NCBI GenBank assembly: GCA_003671025.1
Contig: QWPW01000033.1
Span: 1 to 34,499 of the forward strand
Length of the DNA: 34,499 nucleotides
Reading direction: 5' to 3'
Source of the DNA: Planctomycetota bacterium
GTDB taxonomy: Bacteria; Planctomycetota; Phycisphaerae; Phycisphaerales; SM1A02
Position 1 is the stretch's first letter, and each line of letters starts with the position of its first letter. Below, piece after piece: positions 18,356 through 27,198 of this stretch. The notes beneath the pieces are model-generated. The model was not told the origin of the DNA. It worked only from the letters and a program-made list of their open reading frames with translations, and made no database searches. Both the position numbers and the translations under genes were made by a program.

Positions 18356-19402
18356 ATGGGCACTGAGGTTCTCAATCAGTCTGATATCGACGCCTTGCTC
18401 AATGCAGTAAGCGACCCCGCGCCCGTCGTCGAAGCGCCGCCGACGCAGATCTTTTCTCGCGTACGTCGCGACCGAGACAAGATCGAAATTCGCCCCTACG
18501 ACTTCAAACGTCCCGAGCGGATTTCCAAGGACCAAATGCGCGCGTTGGAGATGTTGCACGAGACCTTCGCGCGCAACTTCGGTGCGTCATTGTCGGGCTA
18601 TCTGCGCACTATTGTCGAAGTGCGCGTTTCGCATGCGGCGCAGATGACCTACTCCGAATTCATCGGAAGTCTGCCCAATCCCACGAGTTTCAATCTGGTG
18701 CGCTGCGCGCCGCTCGAAGGACAAATGTGCCTCGAGGTCTCGCCGTTGGTGATCTATCCCATCATCGATCGACTGCTCGGCGGATCGAATAAAGAGTTGT
18801 TTGTTCCGCAGCGCCCGATGACGCTCATCGAAGTCAAGCTCATCCAAAAGATTCTCCAGCGCGGCCTGTTTGCGCTGTCCGAGGCATGGCAGAGCATCCG
18901 CAAGATCGACTTCACGCTGGGCGAAATGGAATCCAACCCGCAACTGGTGCAGATCGTTCCACCCAACGAAGTCGTGGTGGTGATTGGCTTTGAAGTCAAG
19001 CTCACCAATCGCGCGGGGCCGATGACTCTGTGCATTCCCTATAACTCCATCGAGCCGCTGGTTGAGGATCTTTCCGCGCAAAGTTGGTTTGTCACGGGCA
19101 AGGCCAAGGGCGGCTCTGGCACCGCCGACATGATCGCGGGCGGGCTCTCGGGCGCGCCCATTGATATGGAAGCGACGCTCGCGACCACCAGCATGTCCAT
19201 TCACGAATTGCGCCATCTGCAAGTGGGCGACCTCATCGTCACCACGCGCTCCGCCGACTCGCCCGCGGTGCTCTCGGTGGGGGGACGGCACAAGTTTCTC
19301 GCCAAGGTCGGCCAAATGCGGGGAAATCGTGCCCTGCGCATCGAGCGCTCGATCACGCCCAACGAACGGGTCGATCTCGGTGGTTTCGGCGGCGCTGGCT
19401 GA
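18356..19402 (+). CDS. fliM: Flagellar motor switch protein FliM
   Basis: A 348-residue FliM, a C-ring component that binds phospho-CheY and controls rotor direction. The N-terminal peptide LNQSDIDALLNAV (6-18) is the CheY-binding helix. The middle domain begins near residue 45 (YDFKRPERISKDQMRALEMLHE) and contains the CheC-like fold. The C-terminal SpoA/FliN-like domain (about 265-335) includes LQVGDLIVT and a GRHKFLAKVG loop. Start ATG at 18356 gives the normal FliM start and length. No other flagellar gene (fliN, fliL, flhA) is nearby, so it stands alone between dsbD and a long gene-free region. All domains appear intact, so a functional gene is likely. Confidence 0.95.
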   Translation: MGTEVLNQSDIDALLNAVSDPAPVVEAPPTQIFSRVRRDRDKIEIRPYDFKRPERISKDQMRALEMLHETFARNFGASLSGYLRTIVEVRVSHAAQMTYSEFIGSLPNPTSFNLVRCAPLEGQMCLEVSPLVIYPIIDRLLGGSNKELFVPQRPMTLIEVKLIQKILQRGLFALSEAWQSIRKIDFTLGEMESNPQLVQIVPPNEVVVVIGFEVKLTNRAGPMTLCIPYNSIEPLVEDLSAQSWFVTGKAKGGSGTADMIAGGLSGAPIDMEATLATTSMSIHELRHLQVGDLIVTTRSADSPAVLSVGGRHKFLAKVGQMRGNRALRIERSITPNERVDLGGFGGAG

Positions 19403-19838
19403 AGCGTTGTTGCAGCGTTGTTGAAGCGCGTGCTGCGCGGTTCACCCGGCGCGCGAGCGTCACATTGCAGGGAAATCACGCCCAAATCCGACGTGAAATG
19501 AGCGCGCCATCCGCGCCGACCCGACCGTCGCATGCGCAGACGCGGTCCGCGCGCCTCCTCGTTGCGCCCTCGATGATCCTTTCCCCAAATCGCCGCTGAC
19601 CACGAGTCCATGGCCTCCTCCGGACTTGGGGCGCATTGACGGTTTGGCCTCGAAAGGCTATGTTTCCCCCTCCTTGAGCGGGGTTTGTGCGCTCGAGGTG
19701 TGTTGCCGGTCGTGTGTTTTTGTCTAGTCTGCGACAAGGCGGGATGTCCAATGCTTCGAATCTCTGGTGTGTCACAACTTGTGGTGTCACAGTCCTCTGA
19801 TCCGTCAGGCGGTTGGATTATTCGCGTCGGAATCGACC

Positions 19839-19861
19839 GATGAAGGCTGTTTGCCTTCATC
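19839..19861 (+). other. Perfect 9-bp hairpin in the nusA upstream region
   Basis: GATGAAGGC (19839-19847), loop TGTTT, GCCTTCATC (19853-19861). The stem is perfect, but no T-run follows on either strand, so it is not a standard terminator. It may be a regulatory or small-RNA structure. Confidence 0.5.
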
Positions 19862-20073
19862 CTCGAGTTCGGCCGAATGCGTTGTGTGGCTTTGGGCCTG
19901 TTTCAGTCAACCGTGATCTTGCCACTCGTTTGAGCGGCGTCACGCGCGACGGTGCGAGTTCAACAATCATGCGTGATTCCGCTTCAACTTGGCCTTCGGA
20001 GGCACTTCTGATCTCATAGTCGTTCACACGACACGAGTCTCTCAGGGGTTTGCCGCAACGCCAACCGCCGACT

Positions 20074-20100
20074 AGCCACGAGTGCACTGCATTCGTGGCT
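20074..20100 (+). other. 12-bp hairpin with three-base loop upstream of nusA
   Basis: AGCCACGAGTGC (20074-20085) pairs with GCATTCGTGGCT (20089-20100) around loop ACT, with one G-U pair. A few bases later comes TGTGTGTTT, only a loose T-tract. It could be a weak attenuator or part of a structured leader for nusA. Confidence 0.5.
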
Positions 20101-20170
20101 TGTGTGTTTACAAATGTCTGTAGCGCCGTGCTTTCGCAGCCATTGCGCAAACGCATGGCCGTCAAGTAGA

Positions 20171-20221
20171 TCTCGAAATCAGTCACATCCCGAAATCAGT
20201 CACATCCCGAAATCAGTCACA
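20171..20221. repeat. 17-bp tandem repeat, three units, before nusA
   Basis: Units at 20171-20187, 20188-20204 and 20205-20221 with consensus TCCCGAAATCAGTCACA. The last two units are identical and the first differs at one base. The array lies 73 bases before the nusA ATG. It could be a set of protein-binding sites or simple slippage. Confidence 0.85.
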
Positions 20222-20294
20222 TCTCAACGGCCGTCGCAGGACTTACACGCGGCGCCGACAACCCAGCGCGTCGTAAAGAAAAAGGCCACTCGTC

Positions 20295-21662
20295 ATGAAT
20301 TCTGAAACTCTCCGCATCCTCGACTCCATCGCCCGCGATCGAAACATCGATCGGGAGCATCTCATTCGCGATCTCGAGATGGCGATGATTAGCGCTGCGC
20401 GCCGACACTTTGATTCGCTTGACCCCGATGAATTCGGCTGCGAGATGGATCGTCTCAGCGGACGCATCGTCATTTGGCGTAACAACGAAGAGGGCGGCCG
20501 CGACGATGTGCCTATCGAGAGCCTCGGCCGCATTCCCGCGCAAACCGCCAAGCAAGTAATGATTCAGAAGTTCCGTGAAGACGAGCGCAACTCGCTCATG
20601 GAAGAATTCGCGAAGAAACAAGGCGAAATCGTCACCGGCACCGTCACCCGTCAAGAAGGTCCCGCACTCATCGTGCAGGTCGACCGCGCCGAAGCGTTCA
20701 TGCCCAAGAGCGAGCAGATTCCTGGCGAGATGTTCAAGCCTGGTGACCGCATTCGTTGTCTCGTGCTTGATGTGCGCGACGGCGGAAGCCAAATCAAAGT
20801 GATTCTCTCGCGCGGTTCGCCGGACTTCATTCGCCGCCTCTTCGAAGCAGAAGTTCCTGAAGTTGCTGAGCGCGTCATTGAAATCAAAGCGCTCGCGCGT
20901 GAGCCGGGCCAGCGTTGCAAGGTTGCCGTGGCCAGCGTTGATTCGAAGGTTGATGCCAAGGGCGCATGCATTGGCGTGCGCGGCAGTCGTATTCGCAACA
21001 TCGTCGACGAAGTGAACGGCGAGAAGATCGACATCGTCTTGTGGAACGAGTCGAGCCAAGTGCTCATCTCCAACGCAGTGCGTCCTGCAGCGGTGGAAGA
21101 AGTCAGCCTCTGCTTTGAACTCGGTCGCGCCACCATCATCGTGCGCGAAGATCAGCTCTCGTTGGCGATTGGAAAGCGCGGACAAAACGTGCGCCTCGCC
21201 GCGCGACTCACTGGTTGGGACATTGACATCCTGACGCCGGTGGAGTTTGCCAAGGGCTTGGAAATTCTCGGCGAAACGCTGCGTCCAATTGACGGAGTGA
21301 ACGACGAGATGCTCGACAAGATCGGCGCGCTGGGAATGATCAGCGTGTTCGACATCGAAGAGATCGGCGCAGAAATGTTGGTCGAAGAACTCGGCATCAG
21401 CGACGACCTCGCCGACACGTTGTGCGCGGCCTCGAGCAATCGTGCGCGTGAAGTCGAGATCGAGCGCGAGCGCGATGCGGCTGCTGCGGCAACGCGCGCT
21501 GCGGAAGACGCATCGGCGACCGATGCGATTCTCGGTGGCGGCGGCGGAGATGGCGTCGCGGTCGGCGGCGAGGCGAGTGCTGCGCCAGTGACCGATGTCG
21601 ATGCGGAGAGCGCGGCGGACTCGATCCTCGGCTTCGGTCGTGCGGGTCGCGTGAACAGTTGA
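20295..21662 (+). CDS. nusA: Transcription termination/antitermination protein NusA
   Basis: A 455-residue NusA, which binds RNA polymerase and nascent RNA and tunes pausing, termination and antitermination. The N-terminal polymerase-binding domain covers 1-105. The S1 domain is at about 109-173 (GEIVTGTVTRQEGPALIVQ), KH1 around GACIGVRGSRIRNI (223-236), and KH2 around LSLAIGKRGQNVRLAARLTG (288-307). A helix-hairpin-helix-like segment at about 335-395 resembles the acidic-repeat domain and is followed by a low-complexity Ala/Gly/Asp tail. Start ATG at 20295, with AAAAGG about nine bases upstream. It leads the run nusA-infB-rbfA, the usual order in bacteria; rimP is not in its common place upstream, which is gene-free here. 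Confidence 0.96.
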   Translation: MNSETLRILDSIARDRNIDREHLIRDLEMAMISAARRHFDSLDPDEFGCEMDRLSGRIVIWRNNEEGGRDDVPIESLGRIPAQTAKQVMIQKFREDERNSLMEEFAKKQGEIVTGTVTRQEGPALIVQVDRAEAFMPKSEQIPGEMFKPGDRIRCLVLDVRDGGSQIKVILSRGSPDFIRRLFEAEVPEVAERVIEIKALAREPGQRCKVAVASVDSKVDAKGACIGVRGSRIRNIVDEVNGEKIDIVLWNESSQVLISNAVRPAAVEEVSLCFELGRATIIVREDQLSLAIGKRGQNVRLAARLTGWDIDILTPVEFAKGLEILGETLRPIDGVNDEMLDKIGALGMISVFDIEEIGAEMLVEELGISDDLADTLCAASSNRAREVEIERERDAAAAATRAAEDASATDAILGGGGGDGVAVGGEASAAPVTDVDAESAADSILGFGRAGRVNS

Positions 21663-21786: not shown

Positions 21787-21800
21787 AGGAGGAACGTTTG
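21787..21800 (+). promoter_or_regulatory. Strong Shine-Dalgarno deciding the infB TTG start
   Basis: AGGAGGA at 21787-21793 is nearly perfectly complementary to the 16S tail. It ends five bases before the TTG at 21798. No ATG or GTG lies at a suitable distance in this frame, so the TTG start is well supported. Confidence 0.85.
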
Positions 21801-24800
21801 TCGAAGAAACCCGTGTCGCAGAAGGTGCATCAACTTGCCAAGGAACTCGGTTTGAGTTCCAAAGACATCATTACGCGCTGTCAGAGCGAAGACATTCCTG
21901 ACATCACTACGCACCTCTCGCCGGTTTCGGTGGGCCTTGCGCTGACCATTCGTGAATGGTTCGCAGGCTCTCTCGGCGGCGTCGCGACCGCGACCGCGCC
22001 TGACACGGCGTCGGCATCGGAGTCAGTCGCTGCACCTTCCTCGAGCGCAAAGATTGGCGCGTTCAAGTCGCCAACCAGCGGCACTGATTCGACTCGTCGC
22101 GCAAGCACCGCCGGCAGCGAAGGCGCAGAAGGCGCGGAAGGCACTGAAGCGCCACGTGCTGTGGCCAAGCGCGCCACCAAGAAACCAACTCCAGCCGACG
22201 CGCCGACAGAGGTCACGCCCGCAGGAAAGACGCCGCTGGGCGTCCGACGATTTGTGAGCGGCAGCGGTGATGCCCCGACTCAGACGCCACTCACGCCCGC
22301 GCAGACGAGCGGACGTGGCTCGACCGAGGCGGGGATTGCAGAGCGCGCCACGGATGCTCCGCACGCGACGCCCGCGCCGCGGCCCTCTATCGCAGCTTCT
22401 ACGCCGACGATTTCAGAGGCAGCATCATCAGTCGCCGCAACCGCTCAAGCGGCCGCCGCGCCAACCTCCAGTGCAACTGCGCATGCTCCGACGAGCTCCG
22501 TCGCGGCAGCGCGTCCACCGCACGGCGGCACCACCAATCCTCCGCAGCGCGTGCCGTTTCGCGTTCCTGCGGGATTGACCGCGAAGCAGCAGCCACGCAC
22601 CGATCTTCCGCCAGTGTCGGCGCGCATCGAAGCGCCACAAACTGCGCCTCGACGCGTCATCACCGCACCACCGCCGTCCACCATCGGGGACGGTTCGGGC
22701 GCGCCACCAGTGATGAACGTGCCTACACGTCCTACGCAAACCGGCCCCGTCGGACCACAACTCGCGTTGCGCGAGAAGACGCGCCTCGCGGGTCCGCAAG
22801 TCATTCGCGTTGAGCAAGCTGACAATCTGCCGACGCCGCCACCGATGCGTCGCCTTGGTACCGCAGGCGGTCCTGGGACCGCAGCAGGGCGCACAGGGAC
22901 TGGCCGAGTCGATCCGCGTGCGCGCGGAGGAATCGGTGCTTCGCGCACAGGTCGCGCGGGCGACACCGCGCGTCAAGCGTTTGGCGCACAGGATCTGAAG
23001 GATCGGCAAGCACGCATCGACGGCGCGCGCGGATTCATGACCTCGCATCGCAACCAACCCACGCGCGGCGCGGGTCCGGGGTTCAGCGGCGGCGGTCAAC
23101 GCACCGAGCGCAAAGCAGGCGAAATTGCCCAGATCCATGTTGCTGAGCCGCTCACGATCAAAGAGCTCTCCGCGGCAACTGGCATCAAGGTGAGCGACAT
23201 TCTCAAGAAGCTCTTCCTCGGCGGAACGATGGCGACGATCAACAGCGCCATCGACAGCGAGAAGGCGATGGAGATCATGATCGACTTCGACATCGACCTC
23301 GTCGTCGATGAAGCGAAGTCTGCCGCGGACATCATCGAAGAGCGCTTCAAGGGTCGCGAGCGCACCGACGAGCGTCGTCGCGCGCCGATCGTGACCATCC
23401 TCGGACACGTCGATCACGGCAAGACCAGCTTGCTCGACAAGATTCGCAGCACCAAGATTGCTGCGGGCGAAGCGGGCGGCATCACCCAATCGACGCGAGC
23501 GTTCAGCGTGCCTGTGAAGGCCGGCGATGTCGATCGAATGGTCACCTTCATCGATACGCCTGGACACGAAGCGTTTAGCGCGATGCGTTCGCGCGGCGCG
23601 AAGGTCACCGACATCGTGGTGCTGGTGGTTTCGGCTGTCGACGGCGTGATGCCGCAGACGATCGAATCGATCAACCATGCGAAAGCAGCGGGCGTTCCTA
23701 TCGTGGTCGCGCTCAACAAGATCGATCGACCTGACGCCAACGAAGCGACCATTCGTCGCGTGCTCGGCGAGCTCGCGCAACATGAGCTCAATCCGGTGGA
23801 GTGGGGCGGCACGACGGAAATCATTCGCACCAGCGCAACGCGCGGCGATGGCATTCAACAGTTGCTGGAAATCCTCGACTACCAGGCGGAACTGCTGGAA
23901 CTCAAGGCCGACTTCGGCGGCTTCGCGCGCGGAACCGTGCTCGAAGCGTCCATCGAAGAGGGTCGCGGTCCGGTCGCGCGCATCATGGTGCAAGAAGGCC
24001 GACTCAAGAAGGGCGACTTCATCGTCATCGGACGCGGCTACGGCCGTGTGCGTGACATCATCAACGACAACGGCGCGCGCATCACCGAGGCGTATCCCTC
24101 GACTCCGGTGGCGATCTCCGGTCTCGACACACTTCCCGATGCGGGCGACAAGGCCTACGTGGTCGAGTCGATTCACGCGGCAGAAGAAGCTGCGGACGAG
24201 CGTCGTCGCATCGATCGTGAGCGCGAGCTGGCCACGCCGAAGATCACCCTCGACAACATCTTCTCGCATCTCGAGAAGGCCGGCCGCAAGGAACTTGCGC
24301 TGGTGGTCAAGGGCGATGTGCAAGGTTCGGTCGAAGCACTCAAGGGCATGCTGGTCAAGTTGCCGACCGAAGAAGTTGTGGTCTCGGTCAAGAGCGCGGC
24401 GGTCGGTGGAATCAACGAGAGCGATGTCTCTCTTGCCGAAGCGACCAAGGCGATCATCGTTGGTTTCAACGTCACTTCCAGCAGCAAAGCGCGACAATTG
24501 GCCGACTCCAAGGGCGTCGAGATTCGACTGTACGAAGTCATCTACGACCTCATCGACGACGTCACCAAAGCCGCGCGCGGCATGTTGGCCCCCGAACTCA
24601 AACTCGAAGTGCTCGGCCATGCCGAAGTGCGTCAAGTGTTCAAGGTCACCAAGGTTGGTGCGATTGCTGGTTGCTACATCACCGATGGCGTGGTGGAACG
24701 CAACGCGCAAATCCGCGTGACCCGCAACGGCATCGTGATCGAGAAGGATCGCCGGCTGGAACAGCTCAAGCGATTCAAGGACGACGCGAAGGAAGTGCGC

Positions 24801-24899
24801 TTTGGTCAAGAGTGCGGCATGAAGATCGTGGGCTACGACGACATCAAGGTCGGCGATGTGCTTGAGTGCTACAAGACCGTTTCGGTGCAGAGGAGTTGA
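21798..24899 (+). CDS. infB: Translation initiation factor IF-2
   Basis: A 1033-residue IF-2, the GTPase that brings initiator tRNA to the ribosome. Residues about 8-32 ([19 protein letters not shown]) are the small IF2-N domain. About 55-425 is a long Ala/Pro/Thr/Ser-rich, Arg-spotted linker. A second IF2-N-type domain starts near 447 ([20 protein letters not shown]). The G domain has GHVDHGKT (536-543), DTPGHE (586-591) and NKID (640-643). Domains II to IV follow to the C-terminus, which includes a conserved [18 protein letters not shown] end. The TTG start at 21798 has a strong ribosome-binding site. The C-terminal half is well conserved; the length over typical IF-2 (about 890) comes from the linker. 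Confidence 0.97.
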
Positions 24900-24907
24900 C
24901 ACGGCTC

Positions 24908-25591
24908 ATGCGTCATCCAAAGCCATCGAACGACAACTCTGATTCGGGACGCGATCCATCACGCGATGATCGGCGCTCGCGCGACAGCGCGCAGGGTCGT
25001 CCCACGTCGCGTCCCACGTCGCGTCCAGAAGGACGAGCAGACGGTCGACCAGAAGGTCGTCGCAACACTCGTCCGGAAGGACGACCCGCGGGTCGACTTG
25101 GTCCACCGGTTTTTTCGGCTGCTTCGCCGAGCGATCGACCTGCGCAAATGGGCGGAGAGATCCGTCGCGCAGTGCAGGCGGAGTTGGCGCGCGGGCTCAA
25201 TGATCCGCGCGTGCAAGGAATGATTTCCATCACCGAAGTTGTGGTGACCCCTGACTTGCAAGAAGCCAAGCTGATGGTGTCGGTTCTTCCTGAAGAACGC
25301 GCCTCACTCACGCTGTCGGGCCTGCGCGCGGCCGCGGGATTCTTGCGTCGCAAGGTGATGGAAGAAACCCGCATTGGCCGCGTACCCAAGATTGTTTTTG
25401 AACTCGACGTGCGCCTTAAGCGCCAAGCCGCGCTCGACTCGCTCATTCGTGAAGGCGAGTCGAAACACGCGAGTGGTGCGATAGAACCCGCGTCCGAAAC
25501 CGATGCGCAGCCCGAAGATTCTGTTGAGCCCACGACGCACAAGCAAACTCGTCGCGGCGAAACAAACGCATTGGAGAACGACTCACGATGA
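24908..25591 (+). CDS. rbfA: Ribosome-binding factor A with an Arg/Gly/Pro-rich N-terminal extension
   Basis: A 227-residue RbfA, which assists late 30S maturation. The KH-like core spans about residues 78-180: MGGEIRRAVQAELARGL, then VQGMISITEVVVTPDLQEAK and GFLRRKVMEETRIGRVPKI. Before it lies a 75-residue extension rich in Arg, Asp, Pro and Gly with repeats such as GRPTSRPTSRPEGRADGRPE, also visible as tandem 12-base units in the DNA near 25000-25022. After it is an acidic tail. Classical RbfA is about 120-135 residues, so both ends are extended. The ATG at 24908 is eight bases after the infB stop; AGAGGAG within the infB end (24889-24895) serves it at slightly long spacing. The TGA overlaps the next gene's ATG. 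Confidence 0.9.
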   Translation: MRHPKPSNDNSDSGRDPSRDDRRSRDSAQGRPTSRPTSRPEGRADGRPEGRRNTRPEGRPAGRLGPPVFSAASPSDRPAQMGGEIRRAVQAELARGLNDPRVQGMISITEVVVTPDLQEAKLMVSVLPEERASLTLSGLRAAAGFLRRKVMEETRIGRVPKIVFELDVRLKRQAALDSLIREGESKHASGAIEPASETDAQPEDSVEPTTHKQTRRGETNALENDSR

Positions 25592-27198
25592 AGGTCGAAG
25601 CTGTCCGTGGTCCTAAATTCCTGGCAATTCTGCGCAAGTACGGCAGCAACGCTCCATTGGCGCCAACGCCGGTATTGGTGCATCACGAACCCAACGACCC
25701 GCTGGCCATTCTTCTGACCAACTTTTTATTGTGGGAAAGCACGCCGGAACTCGCGGACGAAGCGCTCGCGCGATTGAGCCGGGTCATCGTCGATGTCAAT
25801 GAACTGCGCGTGATGTTGGAGCGCGAACTCGCTGAGACCATCGGATCGAAGTATCCGTTCATCGAAGAACGTGCGCTGCGCCTGCGCGCCGCACTCAACG
25901 ACGTCTTTCGTCGCCAGCATCGCACTTCGCTTGATCACTTGCGCAACGCGTCGCGCAAAGATCAGCGCGGGTATCTCGAAGGACTCCCCGAGATTCCACC
26001 GTTCGTCTCTGGTCGAACATTGTTGGCGGCCTTCGAGCATCCTGCGGCCGTTGTCGATGACACGACGGTTGAAGTGTTGCTGCAGCACGGTGCGGTTGAG
26101 CCGACGAGTACGACTGCGGATGTCGTCGCGTGGATCAGCAAGCATCATCGCGCTGACGAGATGGTGAAGATTCACAACGCGTTGACCGCGCTCAAGTACG
26201 AAGCGTGTGCGGCGGCGGGAAAGCAATTCACCAAGATTCGCGCGGCATACTTGGCGCGTCATGCGGGGTATCTCGCGGTCGAAAATGCGGCGCGCCAGAA
26301 GATCGAAGATGAGAAGCAGGCGAAGATCGCCGCCGCCGAGCGCGTCATCGAAGACAAGCGTCTGGCGGAGATCGCGAAGGAAGAGGATCGCGTGCGACTC
26401 AAGCGCGAGGCCGAAGAAGCGCGCGTTGCCGCGAAGATTGAGCGCGACGCTCAGCGCGTGTTGCGTGAGCGCGAACGCGTTGCCCACGAAATCGCGCGCG
26501 AGAAGGCGCTCAAGAAAGCCGCACACGCGAAGCAAGTGGCGGCGGTGCGTGAAGAAGCGCGACGCGTGCGCGACGCCGCGCGCAACAAGATTCGCGAGGC
26601 CGCGGCAGCGAAGAAAGCCGCTGCACGCCAGATTGAACAAGATCGCAAAGTGGCGCTGAAGGCCTCGGCGGCGAAAAAGATTGCGGCCGCGAAAGCGATC
26701 GTGGACGCGAAGAAGGCTGCAGCGGCGAAGAAGATCGTCGCTGCCAAGGCTGCGGTTGCGGCGAAGAAATTGGCCGCGGCGCAGAAGGTCGTCGCGAAGA
26801 AGGAAGCGGTTGCCGCCAAGAAACTTGCCGCCGCGCAAAAGGTCGCTGCGAAAAAGGCAGCGGTTGCCGCCAAGAAACTTGCCGCCGCGAAAAAGGTCGC
26901 TGCGGTAAAGGCCTCGGCGACAGCAAAGAAAACCGCGGCCAAGAAGAAGATCGCGGCCAAGAAGGCGCCAGCGAAAAAATCATCGCCGTCGAAGTCGTCG
27001 ATCAAAAAGTCTGCAAGCAAGAAGTCATCGTCGAAGTCATCGGCGAAGTCGTCTTCGAAGTCGTCGTCGAAATCTGCAGCATCCAAGCCTGCGCCTAAGC
27101 GCTCGAACAAAGCTGCGCGCAAGGCTGCGAAGAAAACTTCGCGCGCCGCGTCATCGTCGAAATCCGCGAAATCGGCAAAGCGTGGACGTCGGCGGTGA
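25588..27198 (+). CDS. Divergent HhH-GPD (EndoIII-like) domain fused to a coiled coil and histone H1-like tail
   Basis: A 536-residue protein coupled to rbfA by an ATGA overlap. Residues 1-210 align by eye with endonuclease III: DPLAILLTNFLL (37-48) with the SPFELLIAVLLSA helix, LPEIPPF (133-139) with the LPGVGRK hairpin, and AAFEHPAAVVDDTTV with TAFGWPTIAVDTHI. The catalytic Lys position is Phe139, the hairpin glycines are lost and the Fe-S cysteines are missing; Asp157 matches the catalytic Asp. Residues about 225-345 form a charged coiled coil rich in Lys, Glu, Arg and Ala. About 345-455 is Lys/Ala-rich with three 18-residue repeats, and 455-536 is Lys/Ser-rich, ending SAKRGRRR, like histone H1 tails and bacterial H1 mimics. 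I infer a nucleic-acid-binding structural protein, not an active glycosylase. The glycosylase similarity was not tested by a search. Confidence 0.7.
   Translation: MKVEAVRGPKFLAILRKYGSNAPLAPTPVLVHHEPNDPLAILLTNFLLWESTPELADEALARLSRVIVDVNELRVMLERELAETIGSKYPFIEERALRLRAALNDVFRRQHRTSLDHLRNASRKDQRGYLEGLPEIPPFVSGRTLLAAFEHPAAVVDDTTVEVLLQHGAVEPTSTTADVVAWISKHHRADEMVKIHNALTALKYEACAAAGKQFTKIRAAYLARHAGYLAVENAARQKIEDEKQAKIAAAERVIEDKRLAEIAKEEDRVRLKREAEEARVAAKIERDAQRVLRERERVAHEIAREKALKKAAHAKQVAAVREEARRVRDAARNKIREAAAAKKAAARQIEQDRKVALKASAAKKIAAAKAIVDAKKAAAAKKIVAAKAAVAAKKLAAAQKVVAKKEAVAAKKLAAAQKVAAKKAAVAAKKLAAAKKVAAVKASATAKKTAAKKKIAAKKAPAKKSSPSKSSIKKSASKKSSSKSSAKSSSKSSSKSAASKPAPKRSNKAARKAAKKTSRAASSSKSAKSAKRGRRR
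26752..26913 (+). repeat. Three 54-bp tandem units in the Lys/Ala tail
   Basis: Units at 26752-26805, 26806-26859 and 26860-26913 each encode 18 residues on the pattern AVAAKKLAAAQKVAAKKA, with few changes. Units two and three are close at the DNA level, so the tail grew by in-frame duplication. The pattern is typical of H1-like lysine-rich tails. Confidence 0.85.

Follow-up and report, generated by a model that had tools for sequence, protein, structure and literature searches.

In a planctomycete genome, the gap before nusA is probably a conserved leader that controls nusA-infB and not a small RNA gene of its own

Judged from its sequence and from that of its relatives, the 892-bp gap between fliM, which ends at 19402, and nusA, which starts at 20295, appears to be a leader, conserved in relatives, that controls the nusA-infB genes; a separate small RNA gene is the less likely reading, although the leader, once terminated, would itself be a short RNA. 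The gap lies in a 34,499-nt stretch (the window), which is the entire contig 27 of a 3.25-Mb assembly in 68 contigs. Comparison across the order gives good support to the anatomy of the leader; how it would work as a switch, described below, is a proposal. We consider it an even bet that this leader is a ribosome-sensing transcription attenuator of the nusA-infB-rbfA operon. As an attenuator leader it would be of a known kind; its combination of a leader peptide with a near-minimal frame appears to be a new design.

Downstream of the gap, all on the + strand, lie nusA (20295-21662; Pfam NusA_N, S1, and KH), infB for translation initiation factor IF2 (21798-24899; IF-2, IF2_N, and GTP_EFTU), and rbfA (24866-25591; RBFA). 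After rbfA comes a 536-aa frame on the same strand (25588-27198) that has a long Lys/Ala-rich C-terminal part and no Pfam match. A fliM match was found upstream of nusA in 25 of 31 loci, two of them the window itself, and in the loci of the window's genus the gap from the end of that match to nusA is 663 to 933 nt. The nearest named relatives, by NusA, are 62 to 92% identical; 80 of 274 loci were kept, mostly from metagenome-assembled genomes, and these relatives carry labels such as Planctomycetota, Planctomycetaceae, and Phycisphaerales, a few of which (e.g., Limnohabitans) look wrong. The preliminary description had noted that rimP is absent from the gap, and indeed none is there; none of 21 genomes from the order gave a match to RimP_N (PF02576), compared with 10 of 14 control genomes, and the lineage may lack RimP. 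The gap had also been described as free of genes. It is a real gap, but a short frame at 19751-19843, which 13 of the 14 genus leaders share, was overlooked; two longer frames in the gap gave no match when tested against Pfam. Similarly, the lower GC reported for the gap holds only from about 19600 on (0.525 to 0.57), whereas the first 200 to 300 nt (0.63 to 0.67) are like the end of fliM. GC is about 0.555 to 0.665 in fliM and 0.56 to 0.625 in nusA outside its GC-rich end.

Scanning 19300-20400 gave a single promoter-like match (shuffle mean, 0.3), a sigma-70-like promoter on the + strand at 19636-19664 made of TTGACG (19636-19641), a 17-nt spacer, and TATGTT (19659-19664). Both boxes, with the 17-nt spacer, recur 506 to 834 nt before nusA in each of the 14 genus leaders whose sequence extends far enough. 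The predicted transcript would carry a 5' hairpin (+ strand, 19672-19698), and the folds of the genus leaders have a hairpin at the same place. The 440 nt from 19671 to 20110 fold with a z score of −4.0, none of 100 shuffles being equally stable. The same region contains a single terminator-like match (shuffle mean, 1.3), the 12-bp hairpin at 20074-20100, which together with a weak T tract forms the intrinsic terminator (+ strand, 20074-20111); since a scan match alone is not beyond chance, the weight of this terminator comes from its conservation across the order. The genus leaders share a leader core, and the automatic finder recovered a terminator-like hairpin in 13 of the 14; it missed L012, in which a hairpin is nevertheless visible.

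For the wider comparison, we sampled families f1 to f6 of the order (133 leaders of at least 200 nt), of which 93 had a terminator that passed a stem, sequence, and distance filter; the other 40 were dropped. The comparison also took in 40 leaders of the same class but of other orders, as well as 20 that belong to other classes of the phylum, and a pooled set of 133 leaders with a terminator joins the 93 of the order to the 40 of the other orders. A named-genome set consists of the 22 of 80 loci left after duplicates, short loci, and those lacking a clear terminator were removed. L001 and L011 were excluded from the leader set, and the shuffle statistics given throughout ignore kinship among leaders.

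In 76 of the 133 pooled leaders (shuffles, 9.2; max, 13), the 430 nt ahead of the terminator contain a sigma-70-like site; between the terminator and nusA, none of the leaders has one (shuffles, 1.7; max, 5). The distance from terminator to nusA in this set has a median of 89 nt and a minimum of 22 nt, with 50 nt or less in 20 leaders; in the window it is 194 nt. Because promoter-like sites are seen only upstream of the terminator, nusA-infB-rbfA is apparently transcribed by read-through, barring another type of promoter past the terminator. Of the two readings offered in the preliminary description, leader regulation thus gains from a conserved promoter, a structured leader, an intrinsic terminator, and the empty stretch before nusA. 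The stem of the terminator in other orders of the class often reads AAGTGGG...CCCACTT; the high pairing of the stems across leaders is partly built in, because they were chosen by pairing.

The first of the two short frames, uORF1, begins in the window with an ATG at 19751 and runs for 30 codons (MLRISGVSQLVVSQSSDPSGGWIIRVGIDR) to a TGA at 19841-19843 on the + strand. Its stop lies in hairpin A (+ strand, 19839-19861), which has 9 bp and reads GATGAAGGC-TGTTT-GCCTTCATC; this and the 12-bp hairpin of the terminator are the two strong hairpins of the preliminary description, both of which we find in the sequence. Across the genus, uORF1 has 25 to 30 codons and the same start and stop positions in 13 of 14 leaders, with lengths that differ by multiples of three; it is missing from L008. 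Variable sites fall on the three codon positions 17, 15, and 19 times, and the synonymous fraction is 0.38, compared with 0.29 expected, a weak bias that gives modest support for translation of uORF1 in the genus. Hairpin A can pair in 13 to 14 of 14 genus leaders at each of its nine pairs, of which only the inner ones are informative because the search pattern fixed the ends. Missing covariation or conservation had been named as evidence against a functional RNA here; hairpin A shows two-sided changes at two of nine pairs, and the promoter, the structured leader, and the intrinsic terminator are kept in relatives.

Short first frames are also found outside the genus. In family f2, a uORF1 of 7 to 12 codons ending in [HDN][AVG]x-stop (for example, MLAAFNHAR, MQVLADHGR, and MTYVADTHAR) is present in 25 of 34 leaders, compared with a mean of 0.7 and a maximum of 4 in 200 shuffles and with 0 on the reverse strand, in a test that is not blind because the motif was first spotted in the same sequences. 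The count leaves out L145, which is near-identical to L124, and the four leaders of genus g23 (L066 to L069), in which no uORF1 was found. Some leaders of other orders encode MNFVGLISRA, MFCTGFYSRA, MKKVGIFSRA, and similar peptides.

For the second frame, uORF2, we looked in the 150 nt before the terminator for a Shine-Dalgarno core and, after it, [ATG]TG-NNN-stop. Such a frame, with one inner codon, is found in 64 of the 93 order leaders, a count in which the near-duplicates L082/L084/L085 and L124/L145 were partly left in; 100 dinucleotide shuffles gave a mean of 1.6 and a maximum of 4. Controls gave 1 of 93 on the reverse strand, 1 of 93 in the next 150 nt upstream, and 1 of 272 in nusA coding windows. 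The canonical form is missing from 29 of the 93 leaders. Frames with two inner codons occur in 12 (shuffles, 1.7; max, 4) and frames with none in 5 (shuffles, 1.9; max, 7), and no excess was seen for 3, 4, 6, 8, or 12 inner codons in the same 93 leaders. Among the 64, the start is ATG in 49, TTG in 9, and GTG in 6, the stop is TGA in 51, TAG in 8, and TAA in 5, and the second codon specifies 14 kinds of amino acids. Variable start, second, and stop codons are what is expected from selection on a frame and not on one RNA word.

Other samples give related counts. Of the 22 further leaders from named genomes, 11 have one inner codon and 5 have none (shuffles, 0.4 to 0.5; max, 3), although several are close relatives and 4 of the 11 share ATGGGTTGA. 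In the class outside this order, frames with zero, one, and two inner codons were found in 9, 12, and 9 of the 40 leaders (shuffles, 1.6 to 1.9; maxima, 5 to 6), sets that overlap in that one site can be counted in more than one of them. The 20 leaders from other classes had no overall excess for zero to four inner codons (4, 2, 2, 2, and 0; shuffles, 1.2 to 1.5; maxima, 4 to 6). All four leaders fetched from family f37 of another class (L272 to L275) have a Shine-Dalgarno sequence and then a start codon followed directly by a stop, which shared descent may explain.

The window itself has a degenerate uORF2 (+ strand, 19998-20019), with GGAGG at 19998-20002 and then CTG-ATC-TCA-TAG at 20008-20019. 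It lacks an ATG, GTG, or TTG start, so that the sole start at normal spacing is the CTG, with two inner codons. Of the 14 genus leaders, 12 have GGAGG or GGGGG at the corresponding place, and the frame takes the forms TTG-AAC-TGA (L003), ATG-GCT-TGA (L009 and L030), and CTG-type starts (L004 and L013). With its degenerate uORF2 and weak T tract, the window is a poor example of a well-conserved device, and some function may be reduced in its own leader.

We also searched genomes for GGAGG-N4-9-ATGACCTGA. The pattern matched in 29 of 151 genomes (33 rows, compared with 1 for the reversed control pattern), and the coordinates place 5 of the sites (6 rows) ahead of nusA. Among 20 loci fetched (21 sites), a terminator lies within 200 nt in one (L303), and 17 of the 21 sites overlap an open frame of more than 200 codons on one strand. 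Within such a frame GAT GAC CTG is ordinary coding sequence, so the pattern is ill suited as a test and does not establish that the micro-ORF is specific to nusA.

How might these frames act on the terminator? In f2, the pairing predicted between uORF1 and the 5' arm of the terminator in the same leader has −18.5 kcal/mol, compared with −15.5 kcal/mol for the arms of other f2 leaders; none of 300 permutations of the 19 leaders did as well, in a test that kept both of the near-identical L124 and L145 and in which the automatic uORF1 of L119 is probably wrong. A scan of 23 positions in 25 f2 leaders (without L084, L085, and L145) peaked at uORF1, 96 nt before uORF2, with a z score of −3.4, and had a similar peak at 128 nt. 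We therefore treat the uORF1 pairing in f2 as a candidate antiterminator. The same pairing was unspecific in f1 (180 of 300 permutations were as good), in f5/f6 (36 of 300, 5 leaders), and in the window's own genus (142 of 300, 11 leaders). Pairing of uORF2 with the terminator was weakly specific over 64 leaders (own, −9.0 kcal/mol; permuted, −8.4 kcal/mol; 4 of 300), and both a partner search by base-pair probabilities and a scan by distance from the terminator gave a diffuse picture. In a few f1 members (L027, L028, and L094), uORF2 is itself complementary to the terminator arm. A general antiterminator role for uORF2 was rejected, the pairing being weak over the 64 leaders and strong in those few f1 members only.

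We imagine the following sequence of events, the first steps of which are supported by comparison. Transcription would start just past 19664, and RNA polymerase would pass uORF1, with its stop within hairpin A, and then the Shine-Dalgarno sequence and uORF2. It would then meet the intrinsic terminator at 20074-20100, with nusA reached by read-through only. For the remainder, we infer that a ribosome on uORF1, or one parked on uORF2, would block pairing with the 5' arm of the terminator; with this pairing blocked, the terminator would form and the operon would be off. When initiation is scarce, the antiterminator would form, and read-through would allow NusA, IF2, and RbfA to be made. Because uORF1 paired with the arm would keep the terminator from forming, and a ribosome translating the frame would disrupt that pairing, read-through should be lower when uORF1 is translated, and the IF2 operon would thus run inversely to initiation capacity. 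The part given to uORF2 would follow from its place in the leader. NusA itself may strengthen termination, as in the report on the B. subtilis leader discussed below.

A possible but rather unlikely alternative is feedback by NusA on its own synthesis, in which the terminator would be of the rimP-leader type and NusA dependent, the short frames would protect or pace the leader, and a CA-rich stretch would bind NusA. The stretch between terminator and nusA bears on this reading. GACAA[CT] occurs in 58 of the 133 terminator-to-nusA stretches (shuffles, 9.5), ACAAC occurs in 62 (shuffles, 19), and ACAACTNAATA occurs in 10 (shuffles, 0); the window has GACAACCCAG (+ strand, 20257-20266), one instance of this CA-rich word, which relatives repeatedly carry ahead of nusA, and GACAAGTGAATA is found in three class-level leaders (L155, L156, and L158). 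As a guess, the CA-rich word may be a NusA site, like the boxC site of M. tuberculosis. What boxC does in E. coli has been described as unclear (PMC10250234). In five of six rRNA leaders (L146 to L150; L151 differs), a stretch like TCTTTG-(R)(M)-AAGTGARCAGTTG can be recognized by eye. To the eye, the GACAAGTGAACAG-like words that follow the boxA-like TCTTTG in those five leaders resemble the CA-rich words before nusA. Scripted patterns for boxA and boxC words found no match in the rRNA leaders, which counts against this alternative. A 16S rRNA match was absent in two of eight genomes searched (G000 and G014); the window's own genome gave none, so the comparison with rRNA leaders rests on relatives. 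Between its terminator and nusA, the window also contains the triple 17-bp repeat of the preliminary description, three direct copies (+ strand, 20170-20220); in genus relatives copies are missing, and only a CACATCCCAACG-like piece is kept among the alignment blocks listed.

Precedents for NusA feedback are at hand. B. subtilis NusA is reported, in the portion of the work used here, to be autoregulated through attenuation in its own leader (PMC12288461), and NusA feedback has been suspected for the rimP-leader, a terminator before rimP-nusA-infB that has been called the most ubiquitous transcription attenuator (PMC2965389, Naville and Gautheret 2010; cited in part). The leader resembles the rimP-leader in that an intrinsic terminator, whose stem is conserved in sequence to an unusual degree, directly precedes an operon with nusA and infB; unlike it, as far as the cited part goes, there is no rimP here, the leader is long, and it has two short frames (PMC2965389). 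In that part of the source, larger conserved elements are not reported for the rimP-leader save for a possible antiterminator in some Gammaproteobacteria, its stem is GGGc...gCCC, compared with AGCCACGAGTGC...GCATTCGTGGCT in the window, and its terminator lies 4 to 130 nt from the gene (PMC2965389), compared with the 194 nt of the window and the median of 89 nt in the 133 leaders. Some relatives have stems of the form GGGCC...GGCCC. The B. subtilis nusA leader likewise controls transcription into nusA by termination in the 5' leader; uORFs go unmentioned in the portion of the report used (PMC12288461), in contrast to the two short frames here. Feedback by NusA would leave unaccounted for the strong selection on a Shine-Dalgarno sequence and a near-minimal frame of fixed length, as well as the pairing of uORF1 with the terminator in f2.

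It is improbable, in our estimate, that the micro-ORF serves only in mRNA protection or ribosome landing, a held ribosome shielding or loading the transcript with termination unaffected. Two-codon minigenes that act in cis are known as single cases in the axe-txe and LEE1 leaders, and in the part of the source consulted, where axe-txe is described and LEE1 cited, they possibly protect mRNA (PMC8708949). The freedom of the second codon of uORF2 to vary would fit such a function. Like those minigenes, the frame has a Shine-Dalgarno sequence and start-X-stop in a leader (64 of 93 order leaders, not the window); as far as the cited part goes, the axe-txe and LEE1 minigenes neighbor a toxin or virulence gene and affect either translation or the stability of the mRNA (PMC8708949), whereas here the frame recurs across the order, ahead of both a terminator and nusA-infB. 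Protection alone leaves the place of the frame just upstream of a conserved terminator unexplained. Ribosome sensing by the leader has a partial parallel in Salmonella mgtCBR, where a long leader has two short frames whose translation is expected to steer stem-loops, but the operon and signals differ, and the part of the source used does not mention a two-codon frame (PMC3641672). Among open-licence papers we recognized none that describes such frames for a nusA leader, which does not establish absence from print.

A new small RNA was the other reading in the preliminary description. A free-standing sRNA gene between fliM and nusA that acts in trans, with nusA transcribed independently, was first favored from the genus alignment, and it has in its favor a promoter and terminator of its own, the folding z score of −4.0, and conservation. 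It is now very improbable: all 133 leaders lack promoter-like sites between the terminator and nusA, the next gene, which would then have no recognizable sigma-70-type promoter; the spacing is 22 to 50 nt in 20 of the 133; and conserved short reading frames lie inside the would-be gene.

An Rfam covariance search, proposed earlier as a check, returned no match at gathering score in the window; the best match below cutoff in the gap was MH_s15 (19.4 bits versus 123; E, 0.02). In the loci of 14 relatives, up to an E value of 1, no leader RNA family was matched, and microRNA-type matches below cutoff were all in L157. A missing housekeeping RNA was considered and rejected, as RNase P RNA, SRP RNA, and tmRNA scored over cutoff elsewhere in 4 of 4 genomes. 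6S RNA was over cutoff in 0 of the 4, with weak matches elsewhere in 3 and none in the window's genome. L036, L037, and L038 have 6S RNA matches below cutoff at 29 to 30 bits, possibly a divergent 6S RNA.

What would a ribosome-sensing leader mean for these bacteria? The operon makes IF2, a translation initiation factor, RbfA, a 30S maturation factor, and NusA, a transcription factor involved in termination, and a leader that reads ribosome loading would couple its transcription to initiation capacity. Tentatively, and with somewhat less confidence than we have in attenuation itself, we suggest that the near-minimal start-stop frame kept across the class, mostly with one inner codon and in other orders also with none or two, is a stationary ribosome sensor that feeds initiation into termination before the IF2/NusA/RbfA operon. 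The leader points to what may regulate this operon in a lineage where RimP went unrecognized. The recurrence of the start-stop ORF over many genera makes it a concrete, testable case and not a single curiosity. If the suggestion is true, initiation would be measured almost without elongation, and a homeostatic loop would be closed on the initiation machinery.
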